Positions 287 through 10,566 of a DNA stretch of 13,618 bases are shown piece by piece. The first letter of the stretch is position 1; every line of letters begins with the position of its first letter. A program made the translations under genes and the position numbers. Below the pieces are notes generated by a model. That model had not been told where the DNA came from. It made no database searches and saw nothing but the letters and a program-made list of their open reading frames with translations. The DNA comes from Elusimicrobiaceae bacterium (GTDB taxonomy: Bacteria > Elusimicrobiota > Elusimicrobia > Elusimicrobiales > Elusimicrobiaceae): contig JAGCKY010000006.1 of assembly GCA_017647245.1 (NCBI GenBank), forward strand, positions 1-13,618. The letters run 5' to 3'.

Positions 287-772
287 ATGACAGAAAAATT
301 TGCCCCTACGGACAAAATACTGGAAGAGCACGGCTACGACGCCACTAAGCTTATTCCCATTCTACAACAAGTGCAGGAAATCTACCGCTATTTGCCGGAA
401 GATGTCATGCGCCATATCGCCGATAAACTCAACATTTCCCCGGCCAAAGTGTTTGGGGTGGCGACGTTTTTTGCGCATTTTGCCATTACGCCGAAAGGTA
501 AACATATCATTAAGGTTTGCAACGGTACGGCCTGCCACGTAAAAGGTTCGGCTAATTTGATTAATGCCGTTAAAACCAAACTGAAATTAACTGGCAACCA
601 AGAAACAACTGCCGACGGTATGTTTACATTAGAATGTGTGTCTTGTTTGGGTGCGTGCGGGCTGGCGCCTGTTATGGTCATTGATGAAACCGTACACGGC
701 CAATGCACGCCGGAACTGGTTTCTAAATATATTGACGAAGTCATCGCCGCGGAGGCCAAAAATGCCAAATAA
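287..772 (+). CDS. hydC: HydC: NuoE-like [2Fe-2S] subunit of electron-bifurcating [FeFe] hydrogenase
   Basis: 161 residues, matching the thioredoxin-like [2Fe-2S] ferredoxin family of NuoE/HndA. A helical N-terminal half (about 1-70, with the family-typical stretch LPEDVMRHIADKL) leads into the cluster-binding fold. The likely ligands are C78 and C83 (CNGTAC), C120 and C124 (CLGAC). In HydABC enzymes this subunit works beside the flavin subunit HydB in a soluble cytoplasmic complex that couples NADH and reduced ferredoxin to H2. The start is set by AAGGAG at 274-279, seven bases before the ATG. It is the first gene of a three-gene operon in the usual order C-B-A and overlaps hydB by 11 bp, suggesting translational coupling. 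The family call is firm; direction of electron flow in vivo is inferred. Confidence 0.95.
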   Translation: MTEKFAPTDKILEEHGYDATKLIPILQQVQEIYRYLPEDVMRHIADKLNISPAKVFGVATFFAHFAITPKGKHIIKVCNGTACHVKGSANLINAVKTKLKLTGNQETTADGMFTLECVSCLGACGLAPVMVIDETVHGQCTPELVSKYIDEVIAAEAKNAK

Positions 773-2639
773 ATCCATTGAACAAATTAAGAAAGACTAC
801 AACGAGGCCTATAAAAATGTGACCGGCCGCGTAACTATTTGCGGTGGTACCGGTTGTATGGCCGGCGGCAGTATGAAGGTATACGATGCTTTTGAAGCTG
901 AATTTAAGAAACACAATATCGGCTATTGCTTAAACATCACCAAAGGTTGCCATGAAAATTATTTAAGTATCAGCGGATGCCGCGGTTTCTGCGCCGCCGG
1001 GCCGCTGGTGAGCGTAAACGATGTTTTCTATACCCATGTAAAGCCGGAAGATGTGCCGGAAATCGTTGAAAAAACGGTAATGAAAGGCGAAGTAGTGGAC
1101 CGCTTATTATACGCAGATCCCGCTACCAAAGTACATTACAAAACGACTGCTGAAATTCCGTTCTATTCTAAACAAGAACGTATTTTGCTCGCAGATTGCG
1201 GCCGCATTAACCCCGAAGACATCAATGAATATATTGCGCACGGTGGTTATGCCCAAGCCAAACGCGCGTATTTGGAAATGACCGACGAGCAAGTCTGCCA
1301 AGAAATGATTAAATCGGGACTACGCGGACGTGGCGGTGGCGGTTTCCCGACGGGCAAAAAATGGGATTTTACACGCATTGAAAAAGGTCCGAAAAAATAT
1401 GTTATCTGCAACGCCGACGAGGGTGCCCCGGGTGCGTTTATGGACCGCAGTGTCATGGAGGGTAACCCCAATGCCGTTATTGAAGGTATGATGATTGCCG
1501 CGCGCGCTATCGGTGCCGACGAAGGATATGTCTATGTGCGTATGGAATATCCGCTCGCGGTGGTGCGTATGCGCAAAGCCATTAAGCAAGCCGAGGAACT
1601 CGGTGTGCTCGGCGAAAACATTTTCGGCTCCGGCAAGAATTTCAAAATTAACGTCATGGAAGGCGCGGGCGCGTTTGTGTGCGGGGAAGAAACCGCTTTA
1701 ATCGCGTCTGTAGAAGGTAAACGCGGTATGCCCAAAGTTAAACCGCCGTTCCCGAGCCAAAGCGGTCTGTTCGGTAAACCGACCGTGATTAACAACGTGG
1801 AAACATTAGCTACCGTTGCCAAAGTATTGGAAATGGGCGCGGAAAAATTTGCCGCTATCGGTCCGAAAACCAGCCCGGGAACAAAGACCTTTGCCGTAAC
1901 CGGACACGTAGCCAATACGGGTTTGGTGGAAGTGCCGATGGGCACGACCTTGCGCCAAGTAATTGACGAAGTGGCCGGCGGCACGACCAATAACGACGGT
2001 ACCGTCAATAAAGCCGCTTTCAAAGCCGCGCAAATCGGCGGTCCTTCGGGCGGTTGTTTAACCAAAGAACATTTGGATGTGCCCCTTGATTTTGACTCCC
2101 TCAAATCCGTGGGCGCGATGATTGGCTCCGGCGGGTTGGTCGTGATGAACGAGCATACCTGTATGGTAAACGTGGCGCGTTTCTTCTTGGAATTTACCAA
2201 ACGCGAGTCCTGCGGTAAATGCGTTCCGTGCCGCGAGGGTACGGACCAGATGTTGGCCTTACTGACTGACATTACCGAAGGCCGCGGCACGATGAAAACC
2301 TTGGAAACCTTGGAAGAATTAGCCAAATCGGTGCAAAAGGCTTCCTTGTGTGCGTTGGGTAAAACCGCGCCGAACCCGGTGCTGTCTACCTTAAAATACT
2401 TCCGTGATGAGTATTTGGCACACGTACAAAAGAAAGAATGTCCTGCGGGTGTTTGTAAAGCTTTGTCTAAATACCGCATTGACGCGGCCAAATGCAAGGG
2501 CTGCGGTATGTGCAAAAAAGCTTGCCCGGTGCAAGCTATTTCGGGTGAGGTGGGCAAACCCCATCAAATTGACCCCAAAAAATGTATCAAATGCGGCGCC
2601 TGCGCACGCACTTGTAAATTCGGTGCGGTGACACGCTAG
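762..2639 (+). CDS. hydB: HydB: NuoF-like flavin and Fe-S subunit of bifurcating [FeFe] hydrogenase
   Basis: 625 residues in four parts. (1) A thioredoxin-like [2Fe-2S] domain, about 20-110, with C27/C32 and C73/C77. (2) The NuoF core binding FMN and NAD(H), with the glycine-rich GRGGGGFPTGKKW near 189-201 and CNADEGAPGAFMDR near 216-229, followed by a SLBB-like region. (3) A [4Fe-4S] site with C484, C487, C490 and C530. (4) A C-terminal double [4Fe-4S] ferredoxin with C578/581/584/588 and C608/611/614/618. This layout is that of HydB of trimeric bifurcating hydrogenases, where the flavin exchanges electrons with NADH and ferredoxin. I chose the ATG at 762, six bases after GGAGG at 751-755 and overlapping the end of hydC; the open frame extends back to 636, but that stretch lies inside hydC and has no family similarity. 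All expected cofactor ligands are present. Confidence 0.95.
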   Translation: MPNKSIEQIKKDYNEAYKNVTGRVTICGGTGCMAGGSMKVYDAFEAEFKKHNIGYCLNITKGCHENYLSISGCRGFCAAGPLVSVNDVFYTHVKPEDVPEIVEKTVMKGEVVDRLLYADPATKVHYKTTAEIPFYSKQERILLADCGRINPEDINEYIAHGGYAQAKRAYLEMTDEQVCQEMIKSGLRGRGGGGFPTGKKWDFTRIEKGPKKYVICNADEGAPGAFMDRSVMEGNPNAVIEGMMIAARAIGADEGYVYVRMEYPLAVVRMRKAIKQAEELGVLGENIFGSGKNFKINVMEGAGAFVCGEETALIASVEGKRGMPKVKPPFPSQSGLFGKPTVINNVETLATVAKVLEMGAEKFAAIGPKTSPGTKTFAVTGHVANTGLVEVPMGTTLRQVIDEVAGGTTNNDGTVNKAAFKAAQIGGPSGGCLTKEHLDVPLDFDSLKSVGAMIGSGGLVVMNEHTCMVNVARFFLEFTKRESCGKCVPCREGTDQMLALLTDITEGRGTMKTLETLEELAKSVQKASLCALGKTAPNPVLSTLKYFRDEYLAHVQKKECPAGVCKALSKYRIDAAKCKGCGMCKKACPVQAISGEVGKPHQIDPKKCIKCGACARTCKFGAVTR

Positions 2640-2648
2640 GAGCGATTT

Positions 2649-4382
2649 ATGGAAAAGAAAGAACTAGGATTTGTAACCATTGAAGGTAAAAAAGTAGCCA
2701 TTGAAGGCGAACGCAATTTATTGGAACTCGTGCGCAAAGCCGGTTTTAATATGGTGACGTTCTGCTATCAGCCGGAATTGGAAATTTACGGGGCGTGCCG
2801 CTTGTGCTTAGCCGAAGTGGAAGGCATGGGCATTTTGGCCACCTGTACCGTAAAACCCAAAGACGGTATGGTCGTGCATATTAATACCGATGAAGTGCGC
2901 AAACTGCGCCGCATGAATTTGGAACTCTTGTTGGCGTCGGGCAACCATGAATGTACTTTGTGCGGCAAATCGGGCAACTGCAAACTCCAAAAACTTGCCA
3001 AAGATATGGGTATTACCGATATCCGCTTTAAACGCAAAGTGACCACCACGCAACTGGATAACACTTCTGCCGCTTTAGTGCGCGACAGCAGCAAATGTAT
3101 CCTCTGCGGTAACTGCGTACGTACTTGTAATGAAGTACAAGGTATCGGCGCGATTGATTTTGCGTTCCGCGGCTACAAAGCCAAAATCGCTACCGCTTTT
3201 AACAAAAATATGGGTGAGAGCAAAGAATGCGTGGGCTGCGGTCAGTGCGCGCGTGTTTGTCCTGTGGGTGCTTTGATGCCCAACTCTGAGGAAATTGAAC
3301 TCGTGCAACAAGCCATTAATCACCCGACGAAAAAAGTGGCCGTGCATATTGCTCCGGCGGTGCGCGTGGGACTGGGCGAAATCTTCGGTATTAAACCGGG
3401 TGTTTCCGTAGACGGCAAAATTGCCGCGGCCTTGCGTATGCTGGGCTTTGACTATGTGTACGATACGTCTTTCGCTGCTGATTTGACCATCGTGGAAGAA
3501 GCGAGCGAATTTATCCGCCGCTTTACCGAAAAAGATCACCTGCCGCAATTAACCAGCTGCTGCCCGGCGTGGGTCAACTATGTAGAAAAATTTGTACCGG
3601 AATTTATCCCGAACTTGTCTTCTGCGCGCTCTCCGATGCAGATGATGGGCCCGGTGCTCAAAGCCGATTTTGAACAAAAAGGCGGCAAACGCGAGGACCT
3701 CGTGGTCGTGGCGATTATGCCCTGCACGGCTAAGAAAATGGAAGCCAAATTGGACAAATTCTATGTGGACAAAAACCCGGATACGGACCATGTAGTAACG
3801 ACCGTTGGTTTGGCTAACATGATTAAAGCCGCGGGCATTGATTTCGCCAATTTGCCTGACGAAGAATTTGATGCTCCGTTCGGTACTAAAACCGGCGGCG
3901 GCGTGATTTTCGGTGCGTCCGGCGGTGTAATGGAAGCGGCACTGCGTTTTGCCGCGGCTGAATTGGACCCCAAACGCAAAGGCAGAGTCATTTTTGAAAC
4001 CTTGCGCGAAACCAAAGAGTTCCGCGAGGCAGAACTGAAAGTGGGCGACATTACGGTACGCGTGGCGGTTACGAGCGGTCTACGCAATGCACGCAAACTG
4101 TTAGAAGATGTCAAAGCGGGTAAAGCACATTATGACTTTATTGAAGTCATGTCCTGCCCGGGTGGTTGTGTGGCCGGTGCAGGCCAACCGCAATACGAAG
4201 GTTGGAAAATCCGCAAAGAACGCGCCAAAGGTTTGTATGACGAAGATGCAACCTTGGACTACAAATCCCAAGACAACAAAGATGTAATGGCGTTGTATGG
4301 GAAAGTGTTAGACAAGATTGGTGGTCCGGTGGCGCACAAGCTCTTGCACACCCACTACAAATCACAGAAAGAGCAGAATTAA
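2649..4382 (+). CDS. hydA: HydA: catalytic H-cluster subunit of bifurcating [FeFe] hydrogenase
   Basis: 577 residues with complete [FeFe] hydrogenase architecture. An N-terminal plant-type [2Fe-2S] domain uses C39, C50, C53 and C66. A His/Cys [4Fe-4S] site follows (H100, C102, C105, C111). Two further [4Fe-4S] clusters have C150/153/156/160 and C194/197/200/204. The H-cluster domain carries all three signatures: TSCCPAW at 302-308 (C304 the proton-relay cysteine, C305 a ligand), MPCTAKKMEA at 357-366 (C359) and MSCPGGCVAGAGQP at 501-514 (C503, C507). The tail (about 515-570) is the small-subunit-like region. The enzyme makes or uses H2 in the cytoplasm together with HydB and HydC. AGGAG at 2638-2642 sits six bases before the ATG and overlaps the hydB stop. 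It requires HydEFG maturases, which are not in the window. Oddity: the histidine of the His/Cys cluster is one residue from the first cysteine rather than the textbook three. Confidence 0.97.
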   Translation: MEKKELGFVTIEGKKVAIEGERNLLELVRKAGFNMVTFCYQPELEIYGACRLCLAEVEGMGILATCTVKPKDGMVVHINTDEVRKLRRMNLELLLASGNHECTLCGKSGNCKLQKLAKDMGITDIRFKRKVTTTQLDNTSAALVRDSSKCILCGNCVRTCNEVQGIGAIDFAFRGYKAKIATAFNKNMGESKECVGCGQCARVCPVGALMPNSEEIELVQQAINHPTKKVAVHIAPAVRVGLGEIFGIKPGVSVDGKIAAALRMLGFDYVYDTSFAADLTIVEEASEFIRRFTEKDHLPQLTSCCPAWVNYVEKFVPEFIPNLSSARSPMQMMGPVLKADFEQKGGKREDLVVVAIMPCTAKKMEAKLDKFYVDKNPDTDHVVTTVGLANMIKAAGIDFANLPDEEFDAPFGTKTGGGVIFGASGGVMEAALRFAAAELDPKRKGRVIFETLRETKEFREAELKVGDITVRVAVTSGLRNARKLLEDVKAGKAHYDFIEVMSCPGGCVAGAGQPQYEGWKIRKERAKGLYDEDATLDYKSQDNKDVMALYGKVLDKIGGPVAHKLLHTHYKSQKEQN

Positions 4383-4470: not shown

Positions 4471-5043
4471 TTATTTACAATTTGCTACAAACGTTTCATC
4501 ATCTGCTGCTACGTATTTTTCTACAATCGGGCATATAACCTCGCCCGCTTGTTTGTCCTCGGCATCGGTACTGTTTTTGTTTATGTTGTTTAGTCTGGAC
4601 ACTTCCCACTTCCCTCCGGGTGAGGTTTTGTCCAGATACAGCCAGGTACTTTTAGACGACAGCCAAGTATTTTGGGGGCTATATGTACCATCTGCAGAGT
4701 AGTAGTACTCTGTAGATAGCCGACAGAAGGAAGATTTACAATAAAGATTCAATCCCCATCCATCCATATAGCAGTTGTTGTCCTGACTGCAATTGCCAGG
4801 CATGGCAATCGGTGAAACACTATTCTTTCCGGTTAAATAGACCTTGCCACTACTATTATCTGGCAAACCATTTTCCAAGAGATACATATCTACTGCTTTG
4901 GTCGCCGTATTGATTATCACATCCAGTTGAGCGGCTCTTGCTTTCTTAACCGTTTTTCCATATTGTGGCAGGGCAATTGCGGCTAAAATGCCGATGATGA
5001 GTACAACGACCAACAGTTCTATTAGCGTAAAACCTTTTTTCAT
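4471..5043 (-). CDS. Type IV pilin / pseudopilin-like protein 1
   Basis: 190 residues. The short leader MKKG is followed by FTLIELLVVVLIIGILAA, the class III signal of type IV pilins and type II secretion pseudopilins. Prepilin peptidase should cut between G4 and F5; E9 is the conserved glutamate (position 5 of the mature protein). The hydrophobic helix (5-28) anchors the protein in the inner membrane before assembly. The globular part (about 40-190) carries six cysteines (85, 91, 102, 107, 171, 189), enough for three disulfides. AAGGAG upstream supports the ATG at 5043. It stands alone, with its own promoter and terminator and no assembly genes nearby. The first 24 mature residues are identical to those of the pilin at 10078, while the rest has diverged. 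Whether it is a major pilin, minor pilin or pseudopilin cannot be told. Confidence 0.9.
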   Translation of the reverse strand: MKKGFTLIELLVVVLIIGILAAIALPQYGKTVKKARAAQLDVIINTATKAVDMYLLENGLPDNSSGKVYLTGKNSVSPIAMPGNCSQDNNCYMDGWGLNLYCKSSFCRLSTEYYYSADGTYSPQNTWLSSKSTWLYLDKTSPGGKWEVSRLNNINKNSTDAEDKQAGEVICPIVEKYVAADDETFVANCK

Positions 5044-5080: not shown

Positions 5081-5108
5081 ATTTTGTTTTTTTTTTTTGA
5101 TTTGTCAA
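5081..5108 (-). promoter_or_regulatory. Promoter of pilin 1 with a 12-base A tract in its spacer
   Basis: On the minus strand a perfect TTGACA lies at 5108-5103. Sixteen bases later comes CAAAAT (5086-5081), which aligns with the TACAAT of the other pilin promoter. The spacer is AATC plus twelve A residues. A better -10 match, TATAGT (5081-5076), lies 21 bases from the -35, too far in the present state but well placed if the A tract were about four bases shorter. A single-base repeat here is expected to change promoter strength when its length slips. Confidence 0.6.
5087..5098. repeat. Homopolymer tract, 12 T on + strand
   Basis: Twelve consecutive T on the + strand (A on the pilin coding strand) between the -35 and -10 of the pilin 1 promoter. 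With the equal-length tract at 10022-10033 it is one of the two longest single-base runs I see in the window. Runs this long are prone to slipped-strand mispairing. Confidence 0.9.
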
Positions 5109-9965: not shown

Positions 9966-9997
9966 AAAATCCCTGCCTTTGCGGCAGGGATTTTTTT
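9966..9997 (+). terminator. Rho-independent terminator after the Ala/Pro/Glu-rich protein gene
   Basis: AAAATCCCTGCC (9966-9977) pairs perfectly with GGCAGGGATTTT (9983-9994) around loop TTTGC, and the T run continues to 9997. It separates the envelope cluster from the pilin 2 promoter 17 bases downstream. Confidence 0.92.
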
Positions 9998-10013: not shown

Positions 10014-10041
10014 TTGACTTGTTTTTTTTTTTTGGTACAAT
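10014..10041 (+). promoter_or_regulatory. Promoter of pilin 2 with a 12-base T tract in its spacer
   Basis: TTGACT (10014-10019) and TACAAT (10036-10041) are separated by 16 bases: T, G, twelve T, then GG. A start point near 10048 gives a leader of about 30 bases before the pilin ATG. The layout matches the pilin 1 promoter: same -35 context (GCTTGAC), same spacer length, same tract length, and a similar GTGG-rich start region. The tract here is T rather than A on the coding strand. Confidence 0.75.
10022..10033. repeat. Homopolymer tract, 12 T on + strand
   Basis: Twelve consecutive T inside the spacer of the pilin 2 promoter. It equals in length the tract at 5087-5098 but has opposite orientation relative to the gene it serves. 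Confidence 0.9.
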
Positions 10042-10077
10042 ACGTGGGTGGGCGACATTAAAACAAAAGGAGAGGTT

Positions 10078-10566
10078 ATGAAAAATTGTGCATTTACGCT
10101 AATAGAGCTGTTAGTGGTTGTATTGATTATCGGTATACTGGCGGCCATTGCCCTGCCGCAATATCAAAAAGCAGTAGAGCGTGCCCGCATGACGGAAGCG
10201 GCTATTGTATTGCGCAGTATTGCCGATGCCAACCGCCGTTATCACTTGGCAACAAACCAGTGGGCCAAAGCTACCGAATTGGATTTATTGGATATAGACG
10301 TTCCCGGCACACAAGATGCCACTTGGGGGGATGGTCGTATGAAAACGAAAGATTTTGTATATTCTCCGTGCGGAAATGATAAAGAAGGTATACAAATTGC
10401 GCGGGCCAACCGCTTAAACGGAATAGAAAACGGACCTAATTCATGGGGCTATTCTTATTATTTATGGTTGGATCAAAATAATACGCTGCATTGTGCGACT
10501 ACTGCCGAGGCAAGCTCTGTGGAAGAAAAACTCTGTGCCAATATAGAAGCCAACGGATCACTCTAG
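10078..10566 (+). CDS. Type IV pilin / pseudopilin-like protein 2
   Basis: 162 residues. The leader MKNCA precedes FTLIELLVVVLIIGILAA; cleavage is expected between A5 and F6, with E10 the conserved mature Glu5. Position -1 is Ala instead of the usual Gly. The membrane helix (6-29) is followed by an amphipathic helix (about 30-58) and a globular domain with C98, C139 and C153; C139/C153 would close a C-terminal loop like the disulfide region of classical pilins. AAGGAG (10067-10072) lies five bases before the ATG at 10078; an upstream in-frame GTG at 10048 coincides with the predicted transcription start and would spoil the leader, so it is rejected. The gene has its own promoter and terminator and no pilus assembly genes nearby. 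It shares its first 24 mature residues with pilin 1, though codons differ, pointing to an old, conserved family rather than a recent copy. Confidence 0.9.
   Translation: MKNCAFTLIELLVVVLIIGILAAIALPQYQKAVERARMTEAAIVLRSIADANRRYHLATNQWAKATELDLLDIDVPGTQDATWGDGRMKTKDFVYSPCGNDKEGIQIARANRLNGIENGPNSWGYSYYLWLDQNNTLHCATTAEASSVEEKLCANIEANGSL

Follow-up and report, generated by a model that had tools for sequence, protein, structure and literature searches.

Homopolymer-filled spacers in the promoters of type IV pilin genes of Elusimicrobiaceae

Tract promoters of surface genes and the locus compared

Homopolymer promoters of surface genes are known from several bacteria. Bordetella fimbrial genes switch by tract length, and a 1990 paper by Willems is said, going by its title, to concern fimbrial phase variation; the tract of the vlp genes of Mycoplasma hyorhinis is located inside the promoter spacer. 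The present analysis concerns a tract of 12 T (T12) inside the promoter of a type IV pilin gene, found in a stretch of 13,618 nucleotides from an Elusimicrobiaceae bacterium (the whole stretch is called the window below), and the copies of this promoter elsewhere in the genome and in its relatives. In about a hundred pilin paralogues, pure T12 or, more rarely, A12 fills most of a 16-base-pair (bp) spacer in a sigma70-type promoter. The comparisons suggest to us, with a confidence only a little above even, that selection acts directly on the tract as a component of fixed length in a promoter family, which would define the pilin regulon of these gut Elusimicrobiaceae. In relation to the homopolymer promoters already described, the new features are the near-fixed length, the location inside the spacer and the presence at about a hundred pilin genes.

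The closest described systems compare with the present one as follows. The vlp genes of M. hyorhinis switch through insertions and deletions in an adenine tract of the promoter region (PMC10502178). Like the pilins here, they form a surface-protein family with a homopolymer in the promoter region of each gene; the insertions and deletions in vlp, however, track the on/off state, whereas the lengths here peak at 11 or 12, over about 100 type IV pilin copies and in both T and A orientations. The T-tract of Helicobacter pylori sabA is described as a rheostat adjoining the -35 (PMC4081817). It resembles the present case in being a promoter T/A tract that other genes of the genome share; there, DNA structure and RNA polymerase binding link tract length to output. 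From its place next to the -35, the sabA tract brings UP-like elements into register with the core promoter, whereas the tract here lies between the -35 and the -10, inside the spacer, with near-constant length. Poly(C) tracts are reported upstream of Bordetella fimbrial genes of the fimX locus (PMC12952627); each fimbrial subunit gene there has an upstream homopolymer, as here, but the tract is poly-C, the fimbriae are of another type and the genes are few. A Tad-like pilus region is described for Elusimicrobium minutum, E. proavitum and two Endomicrobium genomes (PMC8809381). Among open-licence papers, searched by title and start of abstract, nothing was found on this promoter family or on a pilin expansion in Elusimicrobiaceae.

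The promoter and its copies in the genome of the window

The window is contig C56 of a metagenome bin (G000; 1.117 Mb, 188 contigs, 78% complete). It has two pilin genes with tract promoters, one of T type and one of A type:

10014..10019, + strand: -35 hexamer TTGACT of the T-type pilin promoter (direct sequence reading)
10022..10033, + strand: T12 tract, inside the 16-bp spacer 10020-10035, with TG at 10020-10021 and GG at 10034-10035
10033..10041, + strand: extended -10, TGG followed by TACAAT (10036-10041; direct sequence reading)
10042..10077, + strand: 5' leader with Shine-Dalgarno-like AAAAGGAGAGG ahead of the ATG (direct sequence reading)
10078..10566, + strand: type IV pilin-like protein, 162 amino acids, N_methyl PF07963 (profile match)
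5081..5108, - strand: A-type pilin promoter, with TTGACA at 5103-5108, the AATC-A12 spacer at 5087-5102 (16 bp) and CAAAAT at 5081-5086
4471..5043, - strand: pilin 1, type IV pilin-like protein, 190 amino acids, N_methyl PF07963 (profile match)

The initial annotation had described 10014-10041 as a pilin promoter made of TTGACT, a 16-bp TG-T12-GG spacer and TACAAT; the sequence confirms this, and the pilin gene that follows is of type IV. The ATG of the 162-residue pilin is at 10078 and the TACAAT -10 ends 36 bases before it. Both window pilins score over the cut-off for the prepilin N-terminal cleavage/methylation motif (PF07963 and TIGR02532). A sigma70 extended -10 promoter consists of TTGAC, a 16-bp spacer and TGN-TANNNT, the TGN ahead of the -10 being the extended -10 motif. 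The last T of the tract and the GG before TACAAT make up such a TGN, an element absent from the initial annotation, and judged by its sequence alone the T-type pilin promoter reads as sigma70-type with an extended -10. The spacer sequence of such promoters is normally free, whereas here it is an almost invariant homopolymer. Leaders resembling the one at 10042..10077 are found upstream of many paralogues, and an A-rich stretch lies ahead of the -35 in the tract promoters.

The promoters of the two window pilins had been described as equal in spacer length, tract length and tract position. The tract length of 12 is indeed the same. The spacer is 16 bp in both only when CAAAAT is taken as the -10 of pilin 1, and the position is shifted by 2 bp, the pilin 1 tract beginning 4 bp and not 2 bp after the -35. 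The A12 itself (5087-5098, - strand) directly adjoins CAAAAT.

The exact 28-mer of the T-type promoter occurs in 45 copies in the 1.1-Mb genome, against none for the reversed pattern, and is therefore not a chance sequence; a looser form (TTGACTTG, T6 or more, GGTAYNAT) has 79 copies. The window pilin has 134 matches within the same genome. One hundred stretches, consisting of pilin-bearing contigs and a few others, were fetched (687 kb including the window). They contain 131 pilin start motifs by our own pattern and 121 T runs of at least 9 on both strands, 108 of them followed by RNTA. Bias from the choice of pilin contigs was checked by counting all runs of at least 10 T genome-wide. There are 118 such runs, 116 of them within the fetched stretches and two at further places that were fetched in addition: 98 lie upstream of pilins in the T orientation, four upstream of pilins in the A orientation, one upstream of another gene, and 15 are undecided, with a contig or stretch end less than 700 bases away. 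Pilins are thus downstream of 102 of the 103 decidable runs. Counted from the pilins, a T tract is present within 700 bases upstream in 98 of 131 and absent in 24 that have enough upstream sequence. The A-type promoters in the genome number four, every one of them A12 and upstream of a pilin. Merging the two counts, which used slightly different start-motif patterns, gives approximately 102 of 122 decidable pilins with a tract. A genome-wide pilin set with a common tract design, as the initial annotation had supposed, is borne out by these numbers and extends through the genus (below). Equal tracts before other genes, which would speak against it, amount to the single run just mentioned, and most decidable pilins do carry a tract.

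Constancy of the spacer was assessed in 108 tract promoters of the fetched stretches, selected for having G or A behind the tract and TA two positions further along. TTGACTTG stands ahead of the tract in 97 of them, and the base directly after it is G in 107, in a set preselected for G or A at this place. Four -10 forms account for 99 of the 108 (TACAAT 52, TATGAT 16, TATACT 16, TACGAT 15). Where TTGAC is readable (100 promoters), the spacer is 16 bp in 87; the others have 12 (1), 14 (2), 15 (2), 17 (6), 18 (1) and 19 bp (1). Five loci (L077, L092, L109, L119 and L133) have no TTGAC but keep TTG, T11 to T13 and GG, with TATAAT or TACAAT further downstream; it looks as if the promoter had moved over a few bases, TTGTTT now serving as the -35.

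The tract ranges from T9 to T15 between paralogues with a sharp mode at T12, which is the length of 79 of the 98 T-type runs upstream of pilins. The pattern TTGACTTG-X-GGTAYNNT gives 98 matches, one of them an unrelated sequence; the remaining 97 are tract copies, of which 83 are pure T12, 11 are pure with another length and three have a single-base interruption. The leader positions adjoining the promoter vary more than the tract, and the codons of the FTLIELLVV motif in 117 pilins are far more variable, the commonest codon making up 36-81%. In purity the tract exceeds both the -10 hexamer and the synonymous codon positions. Homogenisation by copying alone is therefore not an easy explanation, and we judge it improbable that the promoter was simply duplicated along with the pilins and kept uniform by gene conversion, around a homopolymer without a role: such copying should not leave the tract more uniform than the neighbouring -10 and leader. 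It would fit the likeness of leader and start region around many copies. We take the purity and constant length to point to selection on the tract itself, which is no proof, as short gene conversion tracts could mimic the pattern.

The same lengths bear on phase variation. Slippage in the tract would alter the distance between -35 and -10 and flip single pilins on or off, so that cells would differ in pilus make-up. We regard this as a serious rival, possible but on the unlikely side. A homopolymer of at least 9 bases at the promoter, which serves as a criterion for phase-variable promoters, is present, and 12 identical bases, uninterrupted, in the -35/-10 interval are a classical arrangement. 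Tracts off the mode exist in this genome (T10, T11, T13, T14 and T15) and also in G010, G011 and G035. In addition, mutS appears split in the genome of the window, the matches lying in separate pieces and in two reading frames with one internal stop (C5:2-2319); in G088 they are likewise in separate pieces and frames (C2:138293-140734). Either split could be a real loss or an assembly error; a real one in G000 would raise slippage, in favour of phase variation. Three points stand against it: about 100 loci share a narrow peak of lengths, where free switching ought to give a spread; 97 tracts with hardly an interruption are not what second-order selection for mutability would be likely to maintain; and 63 of the 66 genus genomes, though not that of the window, have mutS over the cut-off. 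The sharp peak together with mutS in the genus argues against the tract serving mainly to switch pilins often and one by one, and this proposal of the initial annotation is weakened.

The tract promoter in related genomes

A general T-type pattern (TTGA, 2-5 bases, G, T9 or more, G-N-TANNNT) is found in 54 of the 66 genus genomes, with 1294 matches against three for the reversed control. Outside the genus, it occurs in a second genus of the family (six of 18 genomes), in none of six genomes in the family's other genera, and in one of 59 genomes of the sister family, where the control gave two matches. In the loci inspected outside G000 and G010, most matches, not all, have a pilin start within 700 bases. 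In a scan of named genomes, which may not include the genome of the window, TTGACTTG-T12-GGTAYNAT was found in four stretches from two bins (Elusimicrobiales, reindeer; Elusimicrobiaceae, roe deer), on which the placement among gut Elusimicrobiaceae rests, and none was found in viral contigs.

The 79 copies of the species-specific form compare with 0-5 in each of 60 relatives. This amplification within the species is in favour of passive copying, and the earlier statement that the change of base argues against simple copying is right only in part. Tracts persist throughout the genus with different flanks, and A and T orientations coexist, both of which speak against passive copying. The flanks vary by species: TTGACATCG-T11-GCTACATT in G010, TTGACACG-T12-GCTACAAT in G032 and TTGATTTG-T12-GATAAATT in G006.

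In G010 (370 kb), T11 and A11 forms are both located upstream of pilins. The T form, TCG-T11-GC, has a spacer of 16 bp in 23 of 30 readable promoters; the A form has the same spacer if it is read as TTGACA-AATC-A11-C-GATAAT. The coexistence of T and A versions thus holds for G000 and G010. The modal spacer of the T form is 16 bp in both genomes, as is that of the A form if its -10 is read as CAAAAT or GATAAT. Since the T11 promoters of G010 reach 16 bp by an extra flanking base, conservation of tract length as such was dropped in favour of conservation of spacer length, and other species arrive at the same spacer in different ways.

The A-type pattern was found in 10 of the 66 genus genomes (reversed control 0; the counts include nested matches). 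Forms were compared on the same strand by the commonest tract length and the preceding dinucleotide, and full agreement between T and A orientations had to be reduced to agreement in five of the seven genomes showing both:

G000: TG, 12
G035: TG, 12
G010: CG, 11
G031: CG, 11 (T side from a fuller list, 41 of 51 being CG)
G004: TG, 11

Outside G000 and G010 this comparison uses small samples of two to seven promoters per form, and the loci used from G014 included no T form. As the species are related, the agreement in length and flank is suggestive only.

Over the 66 genomes, the number of T-type matches correlates with that of pilin candidates (Spearman 0.64, uncorrected for phylogeny). First-look candidates, 23 to 250 per genome and some of them false, were used for this purpose because at most 56 per genome were scored. 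The pilin families are very large, with 237 first-look candidates in G010, 250 in G070 and 182 in G031.

Several observations weigh against a directly selected tract of fixed length. Copies off the mode, 14 of 97 that are not pure T12 or 19 of 98 by the count of runs, could equally be the trace of a modest rate of switching. Within a species the copies are not independent, through duplication and perhaps gene conversion. The bin is fragmented and its contigs often break at or near the modules, cutting 15 runs, so that part of the uniformity could be made by the assembler, with collapse or chimeras between copies. The T and A orientations show no clear agreement in G075 and G021. About 20 decidable pilins of the window's genome (24 less the four of A type) are without a tract. 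Finally, 12 of the 66 genus genomes have 35 to 135 pilin candidates each and no T-type match, A-type matches being present in two of the 12; pilins can therefore do without the tract.

Proposed function, pilin leaders and neighbouring genes

The explanation we favour, direct selection on a fixed-length tract, can be put in mechanistic terms. The homopolymer would act as a stiff or bent spacer that sets the geometry of the promoter, and possibly also as a recognition surface for a common regulator; the pilin genes could thereby respond as a group. Occasional slippage by one or two bases would change the output of single pilins in a graded manner, and selection would hold most copies at the working length. 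A 12-base run is prone to slippage and copies off the mode are present, which makes some variation in pilin output plausible; we favour slippage as secondary to a module of fixed geometry. How such a set is expressed calls for an explanation in a small genome with well over 100 pilin-like genes, where nearly all long T/A runs are located at the promoters of these genes. Should output depend on tract length, the set of surface genes under homopolymer control would be a very large one; if a tract-binding protein is in control, the regulon would be of an unusual kind. The promoter pattern also allows pilin units to be found and counted in uncultured Elusimicrobiaceae.

The sole non-pilin gene behind a run of at least 10 T in the decidable set is L286:494-862 (- strand; contig C149). 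It encodes a small protein with a predicted winged helix and a histone-H1-like Lys/Ala tail, a speculative candidate for a regulator. A dedicated tract-binding protein, encoded by this gene and controlling itself, might govern the whole set; this is a special case of the favoured explanation, overlapping with it, and we consider it very doubtful. We give as little credence to the more specific proposal that the homopolymer is an operator, in which the winged-helix/H1-tail protein would read a fixed-length T/A tract in either orientation at about a hundred pilin promoters and its own, with length and flank co-tuned in each species. Four weak matches of about 33 residues (best E 7e-05), one of them named a 'designed helical repeat protein', came from searching PDB sequences with the winged-helix family; they were not used. 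In the fold search for this family, families outside its listing remain possible.

The leaders of many pilins carry long palindrome-bearing repeats between promoter and start codon (L117, L140, L112, L088, L062 and others), and in 44 of 95 cases the distance from tract to pilin core exceeds 150 bases. At some loci, viewed by eye, the repeat appears to lie within the leader peptide, after an MKKAFTL-like N-terminus and before FTLIELLVV. These repeats resemble the palindromic elements that interrupt proteins in other bacteria. The promoters with a TATACT -10 (16 copies) share a conserved, weakly covarying leader with a two-helix fold (L070, L072, L074, L084, L087, L101, L102, L107, L125, L127, L128, L134, L136, L139 and L144). 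An Rfam search of six loci, five of them with the structured leader, returned rRNA matches only and none to the leader.

Upstream of the T-type promoter in the window there is one further element:

9971..9997, + strand: likely intrinsic terminator of the preceding gene, CCCTGCC, loop, GGCAGGG, A and T7 (from reading the sequence)

It probably sets the preceding gene apart from the pilin unit. Positions 287-4382 hold an operon whose translated products (NuoE-like, NuoF-like and a catalytic subunit) suggest a putative electron-bifurcating [FeFe] hydrogenase. Elsewhere in the genome, C2:4472-4502 and C60:10854-10884 form a tract-free promoter-like pair, TTGACTTGGAGT...TACAAT, with a 19-bp spacer, which resembles MerR-family operators.
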